Below are positions 320 to 12,999 of a stretch of DNA of 49,920 bases, piece by piece. The position numbers and the translations under genes are program-made. Source of the DNA: Sphaerobacteraceae bacterium (lineage in GTDB: Bacteria > Chloroflexota > Chloroflexia > Thermomicrobiales > UBA6265); contig JADDPH010000076.1 in NCBI GenBank assembly GCA_016781925.1, forward strand, positions 1 through 49,920, given 5' to 3'. Each line of letters begins with the position of its first letter. Position 1 is the stretch's first letter. Under the pieces are notes generated by a model. That model ran no database searches, was not told the origin of the DNA, and worked only from the letters and a program-made list of their open reading frames with translations.

Positions 320-2053
320 TTGCGCGAGGACCGGACCCCCGCTATCCTCCGCGCACTCTCGGGAATGATGGTGGACGCAGCGGCCGAGGGCGGTACGCTG
401 GGCAACGGGCGGGCGCGTACGCTGGAGCCGGAGATGAGGACCAGGATGGACCGGCTGACCCCGCCTCAAGCCGCTGAGCCCGGCTCGACCGGACCCGAAC
501 TCGCGGCACTTGACGCGCCAACGGCGGCCGCGGTCGTCGAACTGGTCGGGGTGACGAAGGGGTTCGGGGCGGTTCAGGCGCTGCGGGGCGTGGACCTAGC
601 GCTCTACCCGGGCGAGGTCCACGCCCTGGTGGGGGAGAACGGGGCCGGCAAGTCGACCCTGGTCAAGATGCTAGCAGGGGTCCACCGCCCGGACAGCGGC
701 ATCCTCCGCGTCGGCGGCGTCGAGACCGTCTTTCACGGTCCGCTCGATGCACGCAACCAGGGCGTCGCGGTGATCCACCAGCACCCGACCCTCTTCCCGG
801 ACCTGGATGTCGCCGAGAACGTCTTTATGGGGCGCCAGCCCCGAGACCGGACTGGCCGCGTTGATTGGCGGACGATGTACCGGGAGGTCGAGCGGCTGCT
901 GGGCACGCTCGGGGTCCGGATCGGCGTTCGTACGCCCGTCAAGGCCCTCTCGGTGGCCGACCAGCAGCTGGTCGAGATCGCCAAGGCGCTCTCGCTCAAC
1001 GCCCGCGTTCTGGTGATGGACGAGCCGACGGCCTCCCTCTCCGCTCGCGAGGTGGACCGGCTTTTCGCCATCGTGCGGCAACTCCGGGCGCAGGGTGTCG
1101 CCATCCTGTTCGTCAGCCACCGGTTAGAGGAGATCTTCGCCCTCTCGGACCGGATTACGGTCTTCCGGGACGGCGCCCATGTGATCACGGCGCCCGCGGC
1201 CGAGTTGACGACCGAGGCGACCATCCGCCACATAGTCGGCCGCAAGCTGGAGGCGCTCTTCCCGAAGGAGCATGCCGAGATCGGCCAGGTGGTGCTGGAG
1301 GTGCGGGGGCTGACCCGGACCGGGGTGTTTCGCGACGTCGGGTTCCGGCTGCGGCGGGGCGAGATTCTGGGGTTCTTCGGGCTGGTCGGCGCGGGCCGGA
1401 CGGAGGTCGCCCGGGTCCTTTTCGGTGCGGACCGGGCGGACAGGGGCGAGATCCGGCTGGACGGGCACCCGGTGGTCATTGACTCGCCGCTGATGGCGCT
1501 GCGCCACGGAATCGGCTACGTGCCAGAGGACCGACACGGGCAGGGGCTGGTGCTGGACTTTCCGATCTCCGCCAACGTGACGCTGCCGATTCTGGCTCGG
1601 GTCAGCCGTCTCGGGCTGCTGGACCGCCGGCGGGAGCGGGAGATCGCAGCCGATTTCGTGAAAAGGCTCCAGGTGAAGGCGGCGGGGCTGGATGCGCCGG
1701 CAACCTCCCTCTCCGGCGGCAATCAACAGAAGGTGGTGCTGGCCAAGTGGCTGGCGACCGACCCGAAGGTGCTCATCCTCGACGAGCCGACCCGCGGCAT
1801 CGACATCGGAACCAAGGCGGAGGTGCACCGGATCGTCTCCCACCTGGCGACCCAGGGGATGGCAATCATCCTGATCTCCAGCGAGCTGCCGGAGGTGCTC
1901 GCGATGGCGGACCGGGTCGTGGTGATGCACGAGGGCCGGGTGACCGGGGAGTTCGGGCGCGCGGAGGCGAACCAGGAAAACGTGATGTTCGCGGCGACCG
2001 GGCAGACGGCCGCGCCGGTGGGATCAGGGGTGGGGGGGAATGGCCTCGCCTAG
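320..2053 (+). CDS. Sugar ABC transporter ATP-binding protein with two ABC domains (RbsA/MglA-like; probable rhamnose importer)
   Basis: Walker A GENGAGKST, signatures LSVADQQ and LSGGNQQK, Walker B VLVMDEPTA and VLILDEPTRGIDIG; followed by two permeases and a binding protein. True start may lie downstream of 320 (e.g. near 366 or 435). Confidence 0.93.
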   Translation: MREDRTPAILRALSGMMVDAAAEGGTLGNGRARTLEPEMRTRMDRLTPPQAAEPGSTGPELAALDAPTAAAVVELVGVTKGFGAVQALRGVDLALYPGEVHALVGENGAGKSTLVKMLAGVHRPDSGILRVGGVETVFHGPLDARNQGVAVIHQHPTLFPDLDVAENVFMGRQPRDRTGRVDWRTMYREVERLLGTLGVRIGVRTPVKALSVADQQLVEIAKALSLNARVLVMDEPTASLSAREVDRLFAIVRQLRAQGVAILFVSHRLEEIFALSDRITVFRDGAHVITAPAAELTTEATIRHIVGRKLEALFPKEHAEIGQVVLEVRGLTRTGVFRDVGFRLRRGEILGFFGLVGAGRTEVARVLFGADRADRGEIRLDGHPVVIDSPLMALRHGIGYVPEDRHGQGLVLDFPISANVTLPILARVSRLGLLDRRREREIAADFVKRLQVKAAGLDAPATSLSGGNQQKVVLAKWLATDPKVLILDEPTRGIDIGTKAEVHRIVSHLATQGMAIILISSELPEVLAMADRVVVMHEGRVTGEFGRAEANQENVMFAATGQTAAPVGSGVGGNGLA

Positions 2054-3080
2054 CCGGGCGCTGGAGCCCACCCGTACGGGAGCCCAGCTCCGCGCCGACC
2101 GCCTCGTCGGGCTCGTCGGCCGCGTGCGGGAGTTGGGGCTGCTGATCGCCCTGGCGGCGATCGTGGCGGTGGTCGGGGCGCAGCAGTCGCGGTTCCTGAC
2201 CGCGAGCAACGCCCGCCAGATCCTGCTCGCGGTCTCGATCCTGGCCATCCTCGCGGTTGGGCAGACCCTGGTGGTGCTGACCCGGAACGTGGATCTCTCG
2301 GTGGCCTCGATGGTGGGGCTGGTGGCCTACGTCGCCGGGAGCATCCTGCGCGACAACCCCGGGTTCAGTGTGCCGCTTGTGGTGCTGATCGGCTGTGCGC
2401 TGGGGATGGGGCTGGGCGCGGTCAACGGCGCGCTCGTCACCGTGGGGCGGGTGCCGGCCATCGTCGCGACGCTGGGGACGCTTTATGTCTTCCGCGGGGT
2501 CGACTACTGGATCGCCAGCGGCAAGCAGGTGGTCGTCGCCGACGTGCCTCAATCGTACCGCGACATCGCGATGACCCGGGTGAGCGGGGTGCCGACGCCG
2601 ATCATCTTCGCCGCGGTCATCGCCCTCCTGGTCGCCTACGCCCTCCGCTACACCCGGGTCGGCCGCCAACTCTACGCGATCGGCAGCAACCCCGACGCGG
2701 CGCGGCTAGCCGGCATTCGGAGCGGGCGGCTGGTCTTCGGCGCCTTCGTCGCCTCGGGGCTGCTGGCCGGGATCGGCGGGATCCTGTGGGGGTCGCGGTT
2801 CGGGGCGATCGACGCCCGCGCCGCTTCCGGCTACGAGCTTCAAGTGGTGGCCGCGGTGGTGGTCGGCGGGGTGAACATCTTCGGCGGCTCCGGAACGGTG
2901 ATGGGCGCGGTGCTCGGCGCGGTACTGCTGGGCACCATTGCCAACGCCCTCACGATCCTCCGCCTCAACCCGTTCTGGCTCCAGGCCATCTCGGGCGGGG
3001 CGATCCTGGTCGCGGTCACGATCGACCTCCTAATCACGCACCGCTTGCAGCGGGCGTTGATCGCCCGGAGACACCGGTGA
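2040..3080 (+). CDS. Sugar ABC transporter permease (RbsC-like)
   Basis: Multi-TM protein with GQTLVVLTRNVDLSVASMVGL and AVVVGGVNIFGGSGTVMGAVLGA motifs; overlaps the upstream ATPase stop. Confidence 0.92.
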   Translation: MASPSRALEPTRTGAQLRADRLVGLVGRVRELGLLIALAAIVAVVGAQQSRFLTASNARQILLAVSILAILAVGQTLVVLTRNVDLSVASMVGLVAYVAGSILRDNPGFSVPLVVLIGCALGMGLGAVNGALVTVGRVPAIVATLGTLYVFRGVDYWIASGKQVVVADVPQSYRDIAMTRVSGVPTPIIFAAVIALLVAYALRYTRVGRQLYAIGSNPDAARLAGIRSGRLVFGAFVASGLLAGIGGILWGSRFGAIDARAASGYELQVVAAVVVGGVNIFGGSGTVMGAVLGAVLLGTIANALTILRLNPFWLQAISGGAILVAVTIDLLITHRLQRALIARRHR

Positions 3081-4093
3081 ACGCGCGGACTAGGCTCGCC
3101 TCGCTGGCGCGGTGGGAAACGCTGCTGGTGCTACTGCTGATCGGCACCCTGATCTGGGGGACCGCCCGATCGCCCTACTTCTGGCAGGGCAGCAACTTCT
3201 CGGTCGCCACCAGCACCTTCATGGAGCGGGCGATCATGGCCCTGCCCATGACGCTCGTGATCATCTCCGGGGAGATCGACCTCTCGGTTGCCTCTATCCT
3301 CGGGCTGTCGAGCGCCATCCTCGGGGTGAGCTGGGAGGCCGGTTTTCCGCTCTGGTTCTGCATCGTGCTGGCGCTGCTCACCGGTGCCGCGGCGGGGCTC
3401 GTCAACGGGCTGCTGGTGACAAAAGTCGGGCTGCCGTCGCTGGTGGTCACCCTCGGCACGCTGGCGCTCTACCGCGGCCTTGCCTATGTGGTGCTCAACC
3501 AGCAGGCAATCAGCGACTACCCCCCGGCGTTTACCAGGTTCGGCTACGGCAACGTCAACGGCACCCAGATCCCCTGGTCGATGTTGCTGTTCCTGGCCCT
3601 TCTCGCCGTCTTTGCGGTGATCCTGCACCGGAGCTGGGTGGGCCGGCAGATCTACGCCGCCGGGCTGAACCAGGAAGCGGCACGCTTCGCCGCGGTGCAG
3701 GTCGCGCGGATCAAGATCTGGCTCTACGTCGCGTCCGGGACCATGGCGGCGGTGGCCGGGATCGTCTTCACGGCCCGCATCTCCAGCAGCCGGGCCGACA
3801 ACGCGGTCGGCTTCGAGCTGGACGTGATCGCGGCGGTCCTGCTCGGCGGGGTCAGCATCTTCGGCGGCCGGGGCACGCTGCTCGGCGTACTCCTCTCGCT
3901 GGCCGTCGTCGCGACGCTGCGCAACGCCCTGGCGATCACCAACGTCGGACCGGAGATCCAGGGAATCGCCGTCGGCGGTCTCCTGATCCTCTCGGTCCTG
4001 GGTCCCAACATCGCGCGGAGCCTTTCTCGGGGCCGCTCCCGCCCGATCGCCGGCACCCGCGGCCTGCGACCGGAGCCGGAACCTGGCCGGTGA
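3077..4093 (+). CDS. Sugar ABC transporter permease, second subunit (RbsC-like)
   Basis: Probable GTG start at 3077 overlapping the previous TGA (GTGA). GEIDLSVASILGLSSAILG and AAVLLGGVSIFGGRGTLLG motifs. The ORF track extends upstream out of context. Confidence 0.9.
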   Translation: MNARTRLASLARWETLLVLLLIGTLIWGTARSPYFWQGSNFSVATSTFMERAIMALPMTLVIISGEIDLSVASILGLSSAILGVSWEAGFPLWFCIVLALLTGAAAGLVNGLLVTKVGLPSLVVTLGTLALYRGLAYVVLNQQAISDYPPAFTRFGYGNVNGTQIPWSMLLFLALLAVFAVILHRSWVGRQIYAAGLNQEAARFAAVQVARIKIWLYVASGTMAAVAGIVFTARISSSRADNAVGFELDVIAAVLLGGVSIFGGRGTLLGVLLSLAVVATLRNALAITNVGPEIQGIAVGGLLILSVLGPNIARSLSRGRSRPIAGTRGLRPEPEPGR

Positions 4094-4205: not shown

Positions 4206-5378
4206 GTGAAGACGCGTGTCATGATGCTCCGTCTGCTAATGGTCTTCGCGCTGGCGGTCGTCACCGTCGGGGCGGTTGGGGTCCGAGGTTCGGGGATGGC
4301 GCTGGCTCAGGACAACATGTCCTGCGCGGGCGAGCCGATCGGCGGCGACGCGGCAGCGGCCAGCCCCGAGGCGGGCGCAAGTCCCACGGCCGGGATGGAC
4401 ATGGGCATGGGCAGCCCCATGGCGGGGATGGAGATGGGGACCCCTGCCGCCGGTGGCGGCGGTGACCTGAACATCGCCTTCCTGCCGAAGGACGTGGTCA
4501 ACCCCTACTTCGGCACCGCCGCCCAGGGCGGACAGGGGGCCGCCGCCGAGCTTGGCGGCCAGTTCCAGCAGGTCGGCCCGCAGACCTCCAACGCGGCGGA
4601 GCAGGTCACCTACATCCAGACCCTGACCCAGCAGCAGGTCGGCGCGATCGCCGTCTCCGCCAACGACCCGAACGCGCTGGCGCAGTCCCTCAAGGACGCG
4701 ATGGCCCAGGGCATCAAGGTCGTCAGCTTCGACTCCGATGTCGCACCGGACGCCCGCCAGATCTTCGTGAACCAGGCCAACGCGGAGCAGATCGGGCGGA
4801 TCGAGGTCCAGATCATGGGCCGGCTGCTCAACTGCCAGGGCGAGATCGCGATCCTCTCGGCCGCAAGCACGATGACCAACCAGAACACCTGGATCTCGTT
4901 CATGGAGGACGAGCTGTCCAAGCCGGGCTACGAGAACATGACGCTGGTCGAGACCGCCTACGGCGACGACGACCCGCAGATCAGCTACGACAAGACCGTC
5001 GAACTGCTGACGGCCTACCCGGACCTGAAGGGGATCATCTCCCCGACCACGGTTGGGATCACCGCCGCGGCGCAGGCGCTGGAGGCGGAGGGCCGCGGCG
5101 GCGACGTCCAGCTGACCGGGCTCGGCACGCCGAACCAGATGCGGGCCTACGTCAAGAGCGGCACCGTCAAGGAGTTCGCGCTCTGGAACCCGGCCGATCT
5201 CGGCTACCTGGCCTACTACGCGGCCACCCGGCTGATCACCGGTGAGATCACGGGAGCCGAGGGCGAAACGTTCGAGGCGGGCCGGCTGGGCTCCTACACC
5301 GTCGGCGCGAACGGCGAAGTCCTCCTCGGCCCACCCTTCATCTTCAACGCCGAGAACATCGACCAGTTCGACTTCTAG
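4206..5378 (+). CDS. Sugar (probable rhamnose) ABC transporter substrate-binding protein
   Basis: Signal peptide, then a periplasmic binding protein fold: DLNIAFLPKDVVNPYFGTAAQGGQGAAAELG... GIKVVSFDSDVAPDARQIFVNQANAEQIG. GTG start at 4206; the ORF track opens at 4146. Confidence 0.9.
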   Translation: MKTRVMMLRLLMVFALAVVTVGAVGVRGSGMALAQDNMSCAGEPIGGDAAAASPEAGASPTAGMDMGMGSPMAGMEMGTPAAGGGGDLNIAFLPKDVVNPYFGTAAQGGQGAAAELGGQFQQVGPQTSNAAEQVTYIQTLTQQQVGAIAVSANDPNALAQSLKDAMAQGIKVVSFDSDVAPDARQIFVNQANAEQIGRIEVQIMGRLLNCQGEIAILSAASTMTNQNTWISFMEDELSKPGYENMTLVETAYGDDDPQISYDKTVELLTAYPDLKGIISPTTVGITAAAQALEAEGRGGDVQLTGLGTPNQMRAYVKSGTVKEFALWNPADLGYLAYYAATRLITGEITGAEGETFEAGRLGSYTVGANGEVLLGPPFIFNAENIDQFDF

Positions 5379-5391
5379 CGCGACGGGAGTT

Positions 5392-5523
5392 GGGGAGTCG
5401 AGCGAGTCGAGCCGGTCGAGCCGGTCGAGGAGAAGACCGTCACCCCCAACCCCCTCTCCCGATGCACGGGAGAGGGGGCCAGCGGCAGACGTCATGGGGT
5501 GGTTCTGACCCGCTCGACTCCCC
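5392..5523. repeat. Structured intergenic element: outer 13-bp inverted repeat enclosing a 12-bp hairpin and GTCGAG-type repeats
   Basis: GGGGAGTCGAGCG (5392-5404) pairs with CGCTCGACTCCCC (5511-5523). Inside, CCCCCTCTCCCG-ATGCA-CGGGAGAGGGGG (5450-5478) is a perfect 12-bp stem. Confidence 0.75.
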
Positions 5524-5577
5524 GACCCGCTCGACAAGCTCGACTCCTCAACTCCTCGACTCCGTCGGAGGCTTCCC

Positions 5578-5946
5578 GTGACCGAAGGCGCCCGTGTGTG
5601 GCTGATCCCGGACGGCTATCTGCCTGCCCGCAGCAGCGGCGACCAGGTCAGCCACGAGGCGATCTGCTTTCTGAACACCGGCGCGGAGGAGGCCCACGTC
5701 ATGATCGCCTTCTACTTCGAGGATCGGGATCCGATCAAGGACGTGCGGGTGGTTGTCGGCGCCGAGCGGACCCTGCACCTGCGCACGGACGTCCCGGCCG
5801 CATTGGGCGGCGCCGAGATTCCCCATGGCCTCCCCTACGCCATCAGGGTGGAGAGCGACGTTCCGATCTGCGTCCAGCACTCCAGAATGGACACGTCACA
5901 GGACGCGTTGACGCTGATGACGACGATGGCGCATCCGGTTGGGTAG
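5578..5946 (+). CDS. Anabaena sensory rhodopsin transducer (ASRT)-like small beta-rich protein
   Basis: 122 aa, GTG start: VWLIPDGYLPARSSGDQVSHEAICFLNTGAEEAHVMIAFYFEDRDPIKDVRVVVGAERTLHLRTD...IPHGLPYAIRVESDVPICVQHSRMDTSQDALTLMTTMAHP. Matches the remembered ASRT pattern (EGYIP / SHETVCILN / DAHV.I..Y / S.VPIVVQHTRLD / ALLST.AY). Confidence 0.85.
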   Translation: MTEGARVWLIPDGYLPARSSGDQVSHEAICFLNTGAEEAHVMIAFYFEDRDPIKDVRVVVGAERTLHLRTDVPAALGGAEIPHGLPYAIRVESDVPICVQHSRMDTSQDALTLMTTMAHPVG

Positions 5947-6113: not shown

Positions 6114-7649
6114 ATGACTGAAAAACGCTCCGGCCCTTCCAACCCCGTACCCCCTATCACCCCTTCGGCCCCCGCCTACCTCGCAATCGACCTTGGGGCG
6201 GAGAGCGGACGCGGGGTGCTGGGGCGGTTCGACGGGGAGCGAGTGGCCCTGCAGGAGGTCCATCGGTTCCCGAACGTGCCGGTCCGCCTGCCCTCGGGGT
6301 TGCACTGGGACGCGCTGCGCCTCTTCAGCGAGACGACGGCAGCCCTGGTCAAGGCGGCGAGCAGCGCCAGGACGGAGTTGGAAAGCGTCGGCGTCGACGC
6401 CTGGGGGGTTGATTTCGGGTTGTTGGACCGGGACGGCGTCCTTCTCGGCAATCCCTACCACTATCGTGACCGCCGGACGGAGGGAATGAGCGCCCGGGCG
6501 AGCGAGCGCGTTCCCCGGGAGCAGATCTACCGCGCGACGGGCATCCAGGAGATGCCGATCAATACGCTCTACCAGCTTCTGGCGATGGAGGGCTCCCCGC
6601 AGCTTGCGGCCGCGGAGACGCTGCTGACAATCCCCGACCTGATCGGCTACTGGCTTTCCGGAGTCGCCGCGGGCGAGGCGACCATCGCGTCCACCACTCA
6701 GCTCTACGACCCCAGCGGGGGCGACTGGGCCCGTGGCCTCATCGCTAACTTGGGGGTGCCGCCGCACATCTTCCCGCGCCTGATTCCCCCAGGGACGAAG
6801 CTGGGCCGACTCCTGCCCCACGTCGCGGAGGAGGCCGGCGTTGAACGGCTGCCGGTGATCGCAGTCGCCTCCCACGATACGGCGTCGGCGGTTGCGGCCG
6901 TGCCCGCCGAAGGAGAAGACTTCGCCTATATCTCCAGCGGTACCTGGTCGCTGGTTGGGGTGGAGATGCCCCACCCGATCCTGGCGCCGGAGGCGATGGC
7001 GGCCAACTTCACGAACGAGGGCGGCCTCGGCGGGACGGTGCGCCTGCTGAAGAACGTGATGGGGCTGTGGCTCCTTCAGGGGTGCCGGCGAACCTGGGCC
7101 CGCGAGGGCCGGGATTTGACCTACGAGGAGATGGTCGGCCTCGCCGCCGCAGCGCCAGCGTTCGGGCCGCTGATCGACCCCGACCACCCCTCGCTGCTGC
7201 CCCACGGCGACATGCCGGCACGCATCCGCACGCTCTGCCGTGCCCACGGGCAGCAGGAGCCGGTCGAGCCGGGAGAGATCGTCCGTTGCGCACTGGAGAG
7301 CCTGGCGCTGAAGTACCGCTGGGTGCTGGAGAAACTCGAAGAGGTGACGGGCCGAGGGATCAACGTCGTCCACGTCGGCGGCGGGGGCTCACGCAACGAG
7401 TTGCTCTGCACGTTGACCGCCGCCGCGACGGGCAGGCCGGTACTGGCCGGTCCTGTCGAGGCGACGGCGCTCGGGAACGTTCTGGTCCAGGCACTTGCCC
7501 ACGGTCGGGTCGGTTCCGCTGCCGAGATCCGCGCGGTCGTCCGGCGCTCGGTCGAGGTGGTGCGCTACGATCCCCCGGCGGACCGCAGCGCATGGGACGG
7601 GGCCTTCGCCCGGATGGAGCGACTGGTAGCGGCGACGACCAAGGGCTGA
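6114..7649 (+). CDS. rhaB: Rhamnulokinase (FGGY family)
   Basis: AIDLGAESGRGVLGRFDG start; VDAWGVDFGLLDRDG; DLIGYWLSG; ASHDTASAV; YISSGTWSLVGVE; NVVHVGGGGSRNELLC. Confidence 0.93.
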   Translation: MTEKRSGPSNPVPPITPSAPAYLAIDLGAESGRGVLGRFDGERVALQEVHRFPNVPVRLPSGLHWDALRLFSETTAALVKAASSARTELESVGVDAWGVDFGLLDRDGVLLGNPYHYRDRRTEGMSARASERVPREQIYRATGIQEMPINTLYQLLAMEGSPQLAAAETLLTIPDLIGYWLSGVAAGEATIASTTQLYDPSGGDWARGLIANLGVPPHIFPRLIPPGTKLGRLLPHVAEEAGVERLPVIAVASHDTASAVAAVPAEGEDFAYISSGTWSLVGVEMPHPILAPEAMAANFTNEGGLGGTVRLLKNVMGLWLLQGCRRTWAREGRDLTYEEMVGLAAAAPAFGPLIDPDHPSLLPHGDMPARIRTLCRAHGQQEPVEPGEIVRCALESLALKYRWVLEKLEEVTGRGINVVHVGGGGSRNELLCTLTAAATGRPVLAGPVEATALGNVLVQALAHGRVGSAAEIRAVVRRSVEVVRYDPPADRSAWDGAFARMERLVAATTKG

Positions 7650-7771
7650 ACGTCTCCCTAACCCTAATGCCTAGAGGAGGACGATCCGTACCGAGTCGGC
7701 TCTGACCGGTGGCATGGCCCATTTCCCCTCACCATCGGCGGTCCAAGGAGGCGTACGCAAGGAGCCAATCC

Positions 7772-8992
7772 ATGCACCAGACGACCGACCGGGCGTACGA
7801 CGCCCTAGCTGAGACCTTGGCCGGGCAGGGGGTCGATGTTCTAGCGGTGGAGACACGGCTGCGGGCGCAGGAGGTGGAAACGCCCTCCTGGGGCTACGGC
7901 AACTCCGGCACCCGCTTCAAAGTCTTTGCGCAGCCGGGCGTGCCGAGGGACCCGTTCGAGAAGTTCGAGGACGCGGCGCAGGTCCATAAGCTGACCGGGA
8001 TCACACCCGCCGTCGCCATTCACATCCCCTGGGACAAGGTCGACGACTACGGTTCGCTGCGGCAGCATGCGGCTGATCTCGGCCTCCGGATCGGCGCCGT
8101 CAATCCGAACCTGTTCCAAGAGGAAGCGTACAAGCTCGGCAGCGTCTGCAACCCCGCCGCGGCAGTGCGACGCCAGGCGACCGATCACCTGCTGGAGTGC
8201 GTCGAGATCGCCAAGGCGACGGGCTCGACGGACCTCTCCCTCTGGTTCGCCGACGGCACCAACTACCCCGGCCAGGACTCGATCATCGAGCGGCGGGACC
8301 GGATGCGGGAGTGTTTGGCGGAGATGCATGCCGCCCTCGCCCCCGGCATGCGGATGCTGCTGGAGTACAAGTTCTACGAGCCGGCCTTCTACCACACCGA
8401 CCTGGCCGATTGGGGCACCGCGCTGGCGATGTGCCAGAAGCTCGGCGACCGGGCGCACGTCCTGGTCGATCTCGGCCACCACCCGCAGGGCACCAACGTC
8501 GAGCAGATCGTCGCACTGCTGCTGGACGAGGCACGCCTCGGCGGCTTCCATTTCAACAACCGCAAGTACGGCGACGACGACCTGATCGTCGGCTCGGTCA
8601 ACCCCTTCGAGCTGTTCCTGATCTACGTCGAGCTGACCGGGGAGGCCGCGGCGCGGCAGCAGATGTCGATCGCCTACATGATCGACCAGTCCCACAACAT
8701 CGAAGCCAAAATCGAGGCGATGCTGCTCAGCGTCCTCAACCTCCAGGAGGCGTACGCGAAGGCTCTTCTGGTCGATCGCGCCGCGCTGGCGGAGGCGCGG
8801 CAGGCGGGTGACGTTCTCGGTGCCCACCGCGCCCTGCTCGCCGCCTACGCGACGGATGTCCGCCCCCTCTGCGCCAAGGTGCGGACCGATCTCGGCGCGG
8901 CCGTGGACCCCATCGCCGCCTTCCGCGCCAGCGGTTACCAGGAACGGGTGGCTGCGAAGCGCGTCGGCGGCAGGCAGGCGAGCTGGACGTGA
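7772..8992 (+). CDS. rhaI: L-rhamnose isomerase (RhaI / Pseudomonas stutzeri-type xylose isomerase-like TIM barrel)
   Basis: [52 protein letters not shown]... [14 protein letters not shown]... [15 protein letters not shown]... [19 protein letters not shown] at 7772 has an AAGGAG upstream. Confidence 0.9.
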
Positions 8993-10788: not shown

Positions 10789-10905
10789 CTTGCCCGGTCT
10801 GCCCGTATAGAGTCTCGGCTCCCACGATTGATGCCGTCCGCGGAACGTTACGGAGACGGCTTCTTCGCTTCTTCAATGAGAATGAGAAAGGCACGATACG
10901 CGACG

Positions 10906-12999
10906 ATGGCAATCACCCAGACCATCCCTGCCCCGTTCGTCGAGAATCTCTGGGATCCCACCCGGGTGGACGGTCTCTCGCCGCTGGAGGCCCTTACCTA
11001 CCGCTCCAACCTGCTCGGAGCTGATCGCTCGGTCGCCAACTTCGGCGGCGGCAACACCTCCACCAAGAGCTTGGAGCGGGACCACACCGGCCGCGAGATC
11101 GAGACCCTCTGGGTCAAGGGCTCCGGCTCCGACCTTGCCACGATTGCCGCCCGCGGCTTTACGGGGCTGCGCCAGGCCGAGATCCTGCCCCTGATGGAGC
11201 GGCATGCCATGCCGGACGAGGAGATGGTCGCCTACCTCTCCCGCTGCCAGCTGGAACCGGGCATGCCCCGCTCCTCCATCGAGACGCTGCTGCACGCCTT
11301 CGTGCCTTTTCCTTATGTCGACCACACCCACCCCGACGCGATCAATATGATCTGCTGCGCCGAGAACGGCGAGGCGCTCGCCCGATCCTGCTTCGGCGAC
11401 GACGCGGTCTGGATCCCCTACATCCGGCCCGGCTTCACCCTCTCGAAGCAGGTCGGCGAGGCGGTGCGGCACAACCCGAATGCCAAGCTGATCCTCCTCG
11501 CCAAGCACGGCCTGGTCACTTGGGGAGAGACCCCAGAGGGCTGCTACCGGAGCACTGTCGAGGCGATCAACCGGGCCGCCGCCTTTGTCGTCGACCGAGC
11601 CGGGGATGCGCCAGCTTTCGGTGGGGAGACGGTCGCGCCGCTCGCGGGCGAGACGCGAGACGATCTGCTGGCGGCAGTCCTGCCGGCGCTGCGCGGGGCC
11701 GTTTCGGAGGAGACCGCCAAGATCCTGACCGTGGACAGTTCCGACACAGTGATGCGATTCGTCTGCGGGGCGACATCCAGGGTGTTGTCGCAGGTAGGCG
11801 CCGCCTGCCCGGACCACCTGGTCCACACCAAGATGCGTCCGCTTTGGGTCGACTTCGACCCGGCGCAGGAGGACGCTGCCGCCCTACGCGCGAGGCTCGT
11901 GGAGGGGGTTGCCCGCTACCGGGAGGAGTACGCCGCCTACTTCGAACGCAACAAGGGCGATGATGCGACGGATCCGAGCATGGGCGACCCCAACCCCCGC
12001 GTCGTCCTGATCCAGGGCGTGGGGCTGGTCGGGATCGGCCACAACCGGCAGGCGGCGACGCTTTCCCGCGACCTCTACCACCGCTCGCTCGCGGTGATGG
12101 CCGGTGCCGCGGCCCTGGACGAGTACGTCTCCCTGACGGAGGCGGAGTCCTACGCCATTGAGTACTGGCCGCTGGAGCTGTACAAGCTCTCGCTCGCGCC
12201 ACCTCCAAAAGAACTGGCGGGGCGAGTCGCCTTCGTCACCGGAGGGGCCGGTGGGATCGGGCGGGCGGTTGCCAGGTCGCTCGCTGGGCAGGGCGCCTGC
12301 GTCGTCGTCGCGGATTTGGATGCCCCGGGGGCGGAAGCGACCGTGAGTGAGCTTCCCGCTTCAGGGCTTGCCGTTCGTACCGATGTCACCGACGAAGCGG
12401 CGGTGGCGGCGGCGTACCGCGCGGCGATCCTGGCTTACGGTGGCGTGGATGTCGTGGTCTCCAACGCCGGCCTCGCCTCCAGCGCCCCGATCGAAGAGAC
12501 CAGCGCCGAGCTGTGGGACCGCAACCACGCGGTGCTCGCCCGCGGCTATTTCCTGGTCGCGCGGGAAGCGTTCCGCATCCTCAAGGCGCAGGGGATCGGC
12601 GGCAGCCTGATCTTCGTCGTCTCCAAGAACGCCGTAGTCGCCGGCAAGAACGCCGCAGCCTACTCCGCCGCGAAGGCGGCCGAGCTGCACCTTGCGCGCT
12701 GCCTGGCGGAGGAAGGGGGCGCCCATGGCATCCGGGTCAACAGCGTGAACCCGGACGCGGTGCTCCAGGGCAGCAAGATTTGGGACTCGTCCTGGCGACG
12801 GGAACGGGCAGCCGCCTACGGCATCGCCCCAGAGGAGTTGGACGAGCACTACCGCCAGCGCACCGTCCTGAAGGTCAACATCTACCCGGAGGACATCGCT
12901 GAGGCGGTGCTCTTCTTCGCCTCCCCCACCCGCTCCGCCAAGTCCACCGGCAACATGCTCAACGTCGACGGCGGCGTCACGGCGGCGTACGCGCGATAA
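10906..12999 (+). CDS. Bifunctional rhamnulose-1-phosphate aldolase / short-chain alcohol dehydrogenase
   Basis: N-terminal class II aldolase domain (NFGGGNTSTKS, LWVKGSGSDLA, DHTHPDAIN, LAKHGLVTWGE) fused to an SDR domain (GGAGGIGRAVARSLA, YSAAKAA, GNMLNVDGG). ATG at 10906. Confidence 0.93.
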   Translation: MAITQTIPAPFVENLWDPTRVDGLSPLEALTYRSNLLGADRSVANFGGGNTSTKSLERDHTGREIETLWVKGSGSDLATIAARGFTGLRQAEILPLMERHAMPDEEMVAYLSRCQLEPGMPRSSIETLLHAFVPFPYVDHTHPDAINMICCAENGEALARSCFGDDAVWIPYIRPGFTLSKQVGEAVRHNPNAKLILLAKHGLVTWGETPEGCYRSTVEAINRAAAFVVDRAGDAPAFGGETVAPLAGETRDDLLAAVLPALRGAVSEETAKILTVDSSDTVMRFVCGATSRVLSQVGAACPDHLVHTKMRPLWVDFDPAQEDAAALRARLVEGVARYREEYAAYFERNKGDDATDPSMGDPNPRVVLIQGVGLVGIGHNRQAATLSRDLYHRSLAVMAGAAALDEYVSLTEAESYAIEYWPLELYKLSLAPPPKELAGRVAFVTGGAGGIGRAVARSLAGQGACVVVADLDAPGAEATVSELPASGLAVRTDVTDEAAVAAAYRAAILAYGGVDVVVSNAGLASSAPIEETSAELWDRNHAVLARGYFLVAREAFRILKAQGIGGSLIFVVSKNAVVAGKNAAAYSAAKAAELHLARCLAEEGGAHGIRVNSVNPDAVLQGSKIWDSSWRRERAAAYGIAPEELDEHYRQRTVLKVNIYPEDIAEAVLFFASPTRSAKSTGNMLNVDGGVTAAYAR

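Follow-up and report, generated by a model that had tools for sequence, protein, structure and literature searches.

A protein of the sensory rhodopsin transducer (ASRT) family is encoded within an L-rhamnose operon of a Sphaerobacteraceae bacterium, and genes of its kind recur beside two non-orthologous types of rhamnose isomerase gene in other bacteria, while the assembly, which is 82% complete, contains no RhaM. The gene lies at 5578..5946 on the + strand of the window, by which we mean the whole 49,920-nucleotide stretch analyzed here. Its product probably has nothing to do with light and handles the sugar itself; we tentatively propose that it may act on free L-rhamnose as a substitute for RhaM. 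Proteins matching PF07100 are routinely annotated as ‘sensory rhodopsin transducer’ even where a rhodopsin is lacking. Linking one ASRT subfamily to one particular sugar would, given a candidate activity and a solved relative (PDB 1NC7), make the function of the whole family directly testable and correct a misleading annotation.

That the 122-residue product, read from a GTG start, is a PF07100 protein is beyond doubt. The Pfam profile matches residues 4-120 at E 1e-43, spans profile positions 2-119 of 119, and exceeds its gathering score (148.5 bits against a cut-off of 25), and both Anabaena ASRT (2ii7) and Thermotoga maritima TM1070 (1nc7) are matched in sequence at E of about 5e-24. The family signature SHEshChhN is present as SHEAICFLN at residues 25-33 (S25-H26-E27-A-I-C30-F-L-N33), and so are the N-terminal Trp (W8) and the conserved Asn (N33). 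The AlphaFold model, built with 22 relatives as input (pLDDT 91.3), is an eight-stranded beta-sandwich, whose top 19 Foldseek matches in the PDB are 1nc7 and 2ii7-2iia only. The best of these is 1nc7 (E 3.6e-12), followed by Anabaena ASRT; the matches after them, carbohydrate-binding modules, are far weaker (E 7e-3 and above). The family assignment that the earlier note had made from the sequence alone is therefore borne out by profile and structure alike. The invariant or near-invariant polar residues of the family (H26, E27, R64, H67, R69, Q100, R103, and D105) are common to rhamnose-linked and Anabaena types. A scan of viral contigs found no relative of the protein.

The operon around the gene is a rhamnose operon. 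As described before, the reading frame sits co-oriented between the genes for the substrate-binding protein and the kinase, in the order rhaS-ASRT-rhaB-rhaI-rhaEW, all on the + strand. RhaS (4206..5378; TIGR02637, 410.6 bits against a cut-off of 342), the L-rhamnose isomerase RhaI (7709..8992, true start perhaps 7772; TIGR02635, 592 against 531), and RhaEW, a bifunctional rhamnulose-1-phosphate aldolase/short-chain dehydrogenase (RhaD/RhaEW fusion, 10828..12999; TIGR02632, 916 against 568), all pass their NCBIfam cut-offs, which upholds the rhamnose context first read from the sequence. The kinase (6114..7649) has FGGY domains, and its best model is rhamnulokinase, below cut-off (TIGR02627, 442.7 bits against 528). 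Upstream on the same strand are a RhaT-type sugar ABC ATP-binding protein (320..2053, true start perhaps 365) and two sugar permeases (2040..3080 and 3077..4093). The best NCBIfam matches of the ATPase are RbsA/XylG/AraG-type ATPases, below cut-offs, and its orthologue lies within the rha operons of two Chloroflexota of another class (G343 and G402). Both permeases have sugar-permease matches, those of the second being to a longer reading frame (2786-4093), and are 72% and 66% identical, respectively, to orthologues in a third genome (G134). A codon-score caller was used for gene calling in GC-rich loci, and the starts given for permease 2 (3077) and RhaS (4206) are such coding-score calls.

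Several further features of this locus may be recorded. RhaS carries a Met/Gly/Pro-rich stretch (4206-4490; MDMGMGSPMAGMEMGTPAAGGG) that separates its signal region from the binding domain. Between the rhaS and ASRT genes is a 170-bp imperfect palindrome (5386-5555) with outer arms of 33 nt that are 88% complementary and an inner perfect 12-nt hairpin at 5450-5478; it has no second full-length copy in the assembly and may be an attenuator or mRNA-stabilizing element. A co-oriented gene for a PLP-dependent decarboxylase (PF00282, 9256-10788) lies between rhaI and rhaEW, and the rha loci retrieved from G134 and G343 showed no counterpart of it.

Among Chloroflexota, PF07100 proteins are present in 13 of 160 genomes of the class and 13 of 399 of the phylum. 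We located RhaI in both genome sets and examined the 86 RhaI-bearing Chloroflexota genomes, five of which have an ASRT gene near rhaI: that of the window (G000), G134, G093, and, in another class, G343 and G402. The two genes are within 11 kb of each other in all five, and the gene orders differ. They read SBP-ASRT-DeoR-RhaB-RhaI-RhaEW in G134, GH106-like rhamnosidase-ASRT-RhaB-RhaI-RhaEW in G093, and DeoR-ASRT-ATPase-permeases-SBP-RhaI-RhaEW-RhaB in G343; the G402 operon follows G343 from the ASRT gene onward, with a DeoR relative just upstream. Some junctions are tight: the ASRT gene overlaps the ATPase gene by 4 bp in G343 and ends 2 bp ahead of rhaB in G093. The association outlasts gene rearrangement, yet it is a minority feature of Chloroflexota rhaI operons. 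In G093 the protein encoded directly upstream of ASRT (1323 aa; L044 4248-8219) has weak GH106 and alpha-L-rhamnosidase domain matches.

The same linkage occurs with rhaA, a rhamnose isomerase type non-orthologous to RhaI. In six Clostridiales/Lachnospiraceae loci (L002, L003, L004, L005, L007, and L008) the ASRT gene is immediately upstream of rhaA, and in L004, L007, and L008 the 12-17 bp gap holds a ribosome-binding-site-like stretch. We retrieved these loci by peptide patterns taken from the window protein, which biases any rate estimated from them; among 149 genomes sampled evenly from the same phylum, ASRT was present in 7 and beside rhaA in none of the loci examined. Linkage in four other Chloroflexota and six Clostridiales strengthens the rhamnose inference of the earlier note, but not its regulator-gap argument, so that its interpretation is partly supported. 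A regulator is indeed not recognizable among the main open reading frames of the window. However, the window is one entire contig (G000:C127) that starts about 0.3 kb 5' of the ATPase gene, so the promoter side is missing, the operon is cut at its 5' end, and the absence of a regulator is weak evidence. Furthermore, sister operons carry both genes: a DeoR gene lies between ASRT and rhaB in G134, and another is placed about 30 bp upstream of ASRT in G343 and likewise in G402. We therefore rejected the filling of a regulator gap as the main reading. G000 (82% complete, operon cut at the contig start) yielded no relative of the DeoR regulator of G134.

Sequence comparison separates the rhamnose-linked proteins from the Anabaena type. 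A tree of 40 ASRT sequences places the 12 rhamnose-linked members, TM1070 among them, without exception in a clade of 21 (support 0.995) and none in the Anabaena-type clade (naive Fisher 6e-5, relatedness ignored). The rhamnose-linked members have P11-D12, E48, D71, P86-Y87, and E92 in common. Anabaena ASRT (PDB 2II7) resembles the window protein in PF07100 membership, the SHE..C..N motif, and fold, but belongs to the other subfamily, with AEGYIP, N71- and D86-type residues, and R/N DNA-contact residues. Those contacts, reported by NMR, are R109, Q110, and N113 (PMC8660804). Assuming that chain numbering is one residue ahead of that in the paper (R109/N113 = chain columns 110/114), R109 and N113 are kept in 0 of the 12 rhamnose-linked ASRTs and Q110 in 10 of 12; the window protein has S, Q, and L at these columns.

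The closest solved relative, TM1070, is like the window protein in sequence (about 41% identity), fold, and subfamily markers, whereas the isomerase (RhaA), aldolase (RhaD), and transporter (Rtp) of its system come from other families. The joining of the Thermotoga ASRT gene with sugar isomerase, aldolase, and kinase genes was published in 2009, together with the proposal that the superfamily comprises sugar sensors and the observation of ethanediol in the TM1070 cleft (PMC2739507). The occurrence of ASRT in sugar operons has thus been published in general form, and the window protein is a further case of a known association. The T. maritima rhamnose operon, induced 27-37 fold on rhamnose, has been written rhaMADBC (Rodionov et al. 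2013, PMC3750489). As T. maritima has a PF07100 match and lacks PF05336, this naming and the 2009 statement on linked genes indicate that its ‘rhaM’ is probably TM1070, judging from gene content. If so, the mutarotase reading is already in use as an annotation; our literature search found no assay behind it and no paper that names rhamnose together with the sensory rhodopsin transducer family. The Clostridium rhamnose papers found in that search describe an ordinary RhaM.

RhaM speeds the exchange of the alpha and beta anomers of L-rhamnose and so supplies the anomer preferred by the isomerase. RhaM/RhaU (PF05336) is like the window protein in its place in rhamnose gene clusters and in proposed function, but unlike it in that a sequence relation was not detected; at E 0.1 the window protein matched PF07100 only. 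By profile search PF05336 is absent from the whole G000 assembly (82% complete), in line with the remark in the earlier note that a rhamnose mutarotase was missing and consistent with a substitute role. The G134, G343, and G402 assemblies likewise gave no PF05336 match, and G093 has a single copy, outside its rha cluster and in one that lacks genes for rhamnose catabolism. In many Chloroflexota the RhaM gene is directly beside rhaI, a slot comparable to that of ASRT before rhaA. Among the 86 RhaI genomes, RhaM lies near rhaI in 30, ASRT in five, and both in none (p 0.16, not significant); RhaM anywhere in the genome is found in one of the five ASRT-rhaI genomes versus 64 of the 81 others (p 0.012), p-values that ignore shared ancestry and represent about three independent Chloroflexota lineages, some with incomplete assemblies. 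PF05336 is also absent from four of the six Clostridiales genomes with ASRT-rhaA (G506, G507, G659, and G660), while the other two have a weaker match elsewhere (G509 and G658, weak in G658).

The types of transporter, isomerase, and regulator vary while ASRT stays, which points to a metabolite rather than one partner protein as its target. Since, in addition, the tightest Clostridiales neighbor is rhaA, an enzyme of the free sugar, and regulators are already present, and RhaM is missing, a mutarotase role on free L-rhamnose is the reading we prefer. The invariant or near-invariant polar residues listed above also speak for it. The rhamnose-linked ASRT would be a small cytosolic beta-sandwich, modeled here as a monomer and probably tetrameric like TM1070, co-produced with the transporter and the catabolic enzymes for rhamnose. 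Its conserved polar cleft, with His26, Glu27, and Cys30, is a putative ligand site, and free L-rhamnose after uptake would be the substrate. Its likeliest job may be that of the missing mutarotase, accelerating alpha/beta anomer exchange and thereby providing the isomerase with its preferred anomer. More speculatively, and with considerable doubt, the rhamnose-linked ASRTs may form a second, unrelated beta-sandwich family of L-rhamnose mutarotases that stands in for RhaM in certain Chloroflexota, Clostridiales, and Thermotoga; catalysis or anomer-selective binding would then predate the recruitment of an ASRT as rhodopsin partner in Anabaena.

The chief rival to the mutarotase substitute is an intracellular sugar sensor, a tetramer of ASRT that, on binding rhamnose or a phosphorylated intermediate, would tune the transporter, enzymes, or a DeoR/LacI regulator through protein contact. 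This is possible without being probable: it agrees with the 2009 proposal and the ethanediol in the TM1070 cleft (PMC2739507), with the presence of ASRT genes in varied sugar operons, and, as its best evidence, with the adjoining DeoR genes of two lineages (G343/G402 and G134). However, the partner families vary between lineages (DeoR or LacI, RhaS-type or branched-chain-type ABC transporter, RhaI or RhaA), so that a single conserved contact partner is not seen. An unlikely alternative is that ASRT serves a different rhamnose intermediate, either as an accessory protein or as an enzyme; rhamnulose, rhamnulose-1-phosphate, and L-lactaldehyde are candidates. In three Bacillota (G571, G609, and G644) the ASRT gene adjoins a class II aldolase gene without a rhamnose isomerase gene beside it, and the ASRT gene of G590 comes after one that weakly matches rhamnogalacturonan lyase, whereas the isomerase gene next to ASRT in Clostridiales speaks for the free-sugar step.

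For Anabaena ASRT, binding and looping of DNA and an increase in reporter expression have been reported (PMC8660804), but a DNA-binding operon regulator of that kind is improbable here, as two of the three Anabaena contact residues are kept in none of the 12 rhamnose-linked proteins, Anabaena ASRT itself binds DNA weakly (about 10 uM) and with little sequence specificity, and sister operons already have DeoR regulators. Hardly credible is a soluble transducer of a sensory rhodopsin, despite the family name and the Anabaena precedent, where the partner is a rhodopsin. The window protein lies outside the Anabaena-type clade, the ASRT genes of several lineages run in the same direction as the rhamnose genes, and, as had been noted before, the main open reading frames of the window include no rhodopsin gene.

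Some observations count against the substitute reading itself. PF05336 is present in addition to ASRT in the genomes G093, G509, and G658, and G094, G099, and G136 have rhaI with neither ASRT nor RhaM found nearby. The Chloroflexota anticorrelation comes from about three lineages, with the locus-level p at 0.16. Finally, the conserved residues are common to the Anabaena type, and ASRT genes also occur outside rhamnose operons.

Plasmid-borne ASRT genes, for example, have FAD-type sugar or lactone oxidases, glucoamylases, and sugar transporters as neighbors. The ASRT-aldolase pairs of Bacillota are at L238 8340-9471, L239 9217-10349, and L240 6366-7519. Sinorhizobium and the archaeon Natrononativus each have a gene for an FAD-type sugar or lactone oxidase between two diverged ASRT paralogues (L230 5965-8110 and L231 5995-8026), and the second Sinorhizobium paralogue departs from the SHE..C motif.
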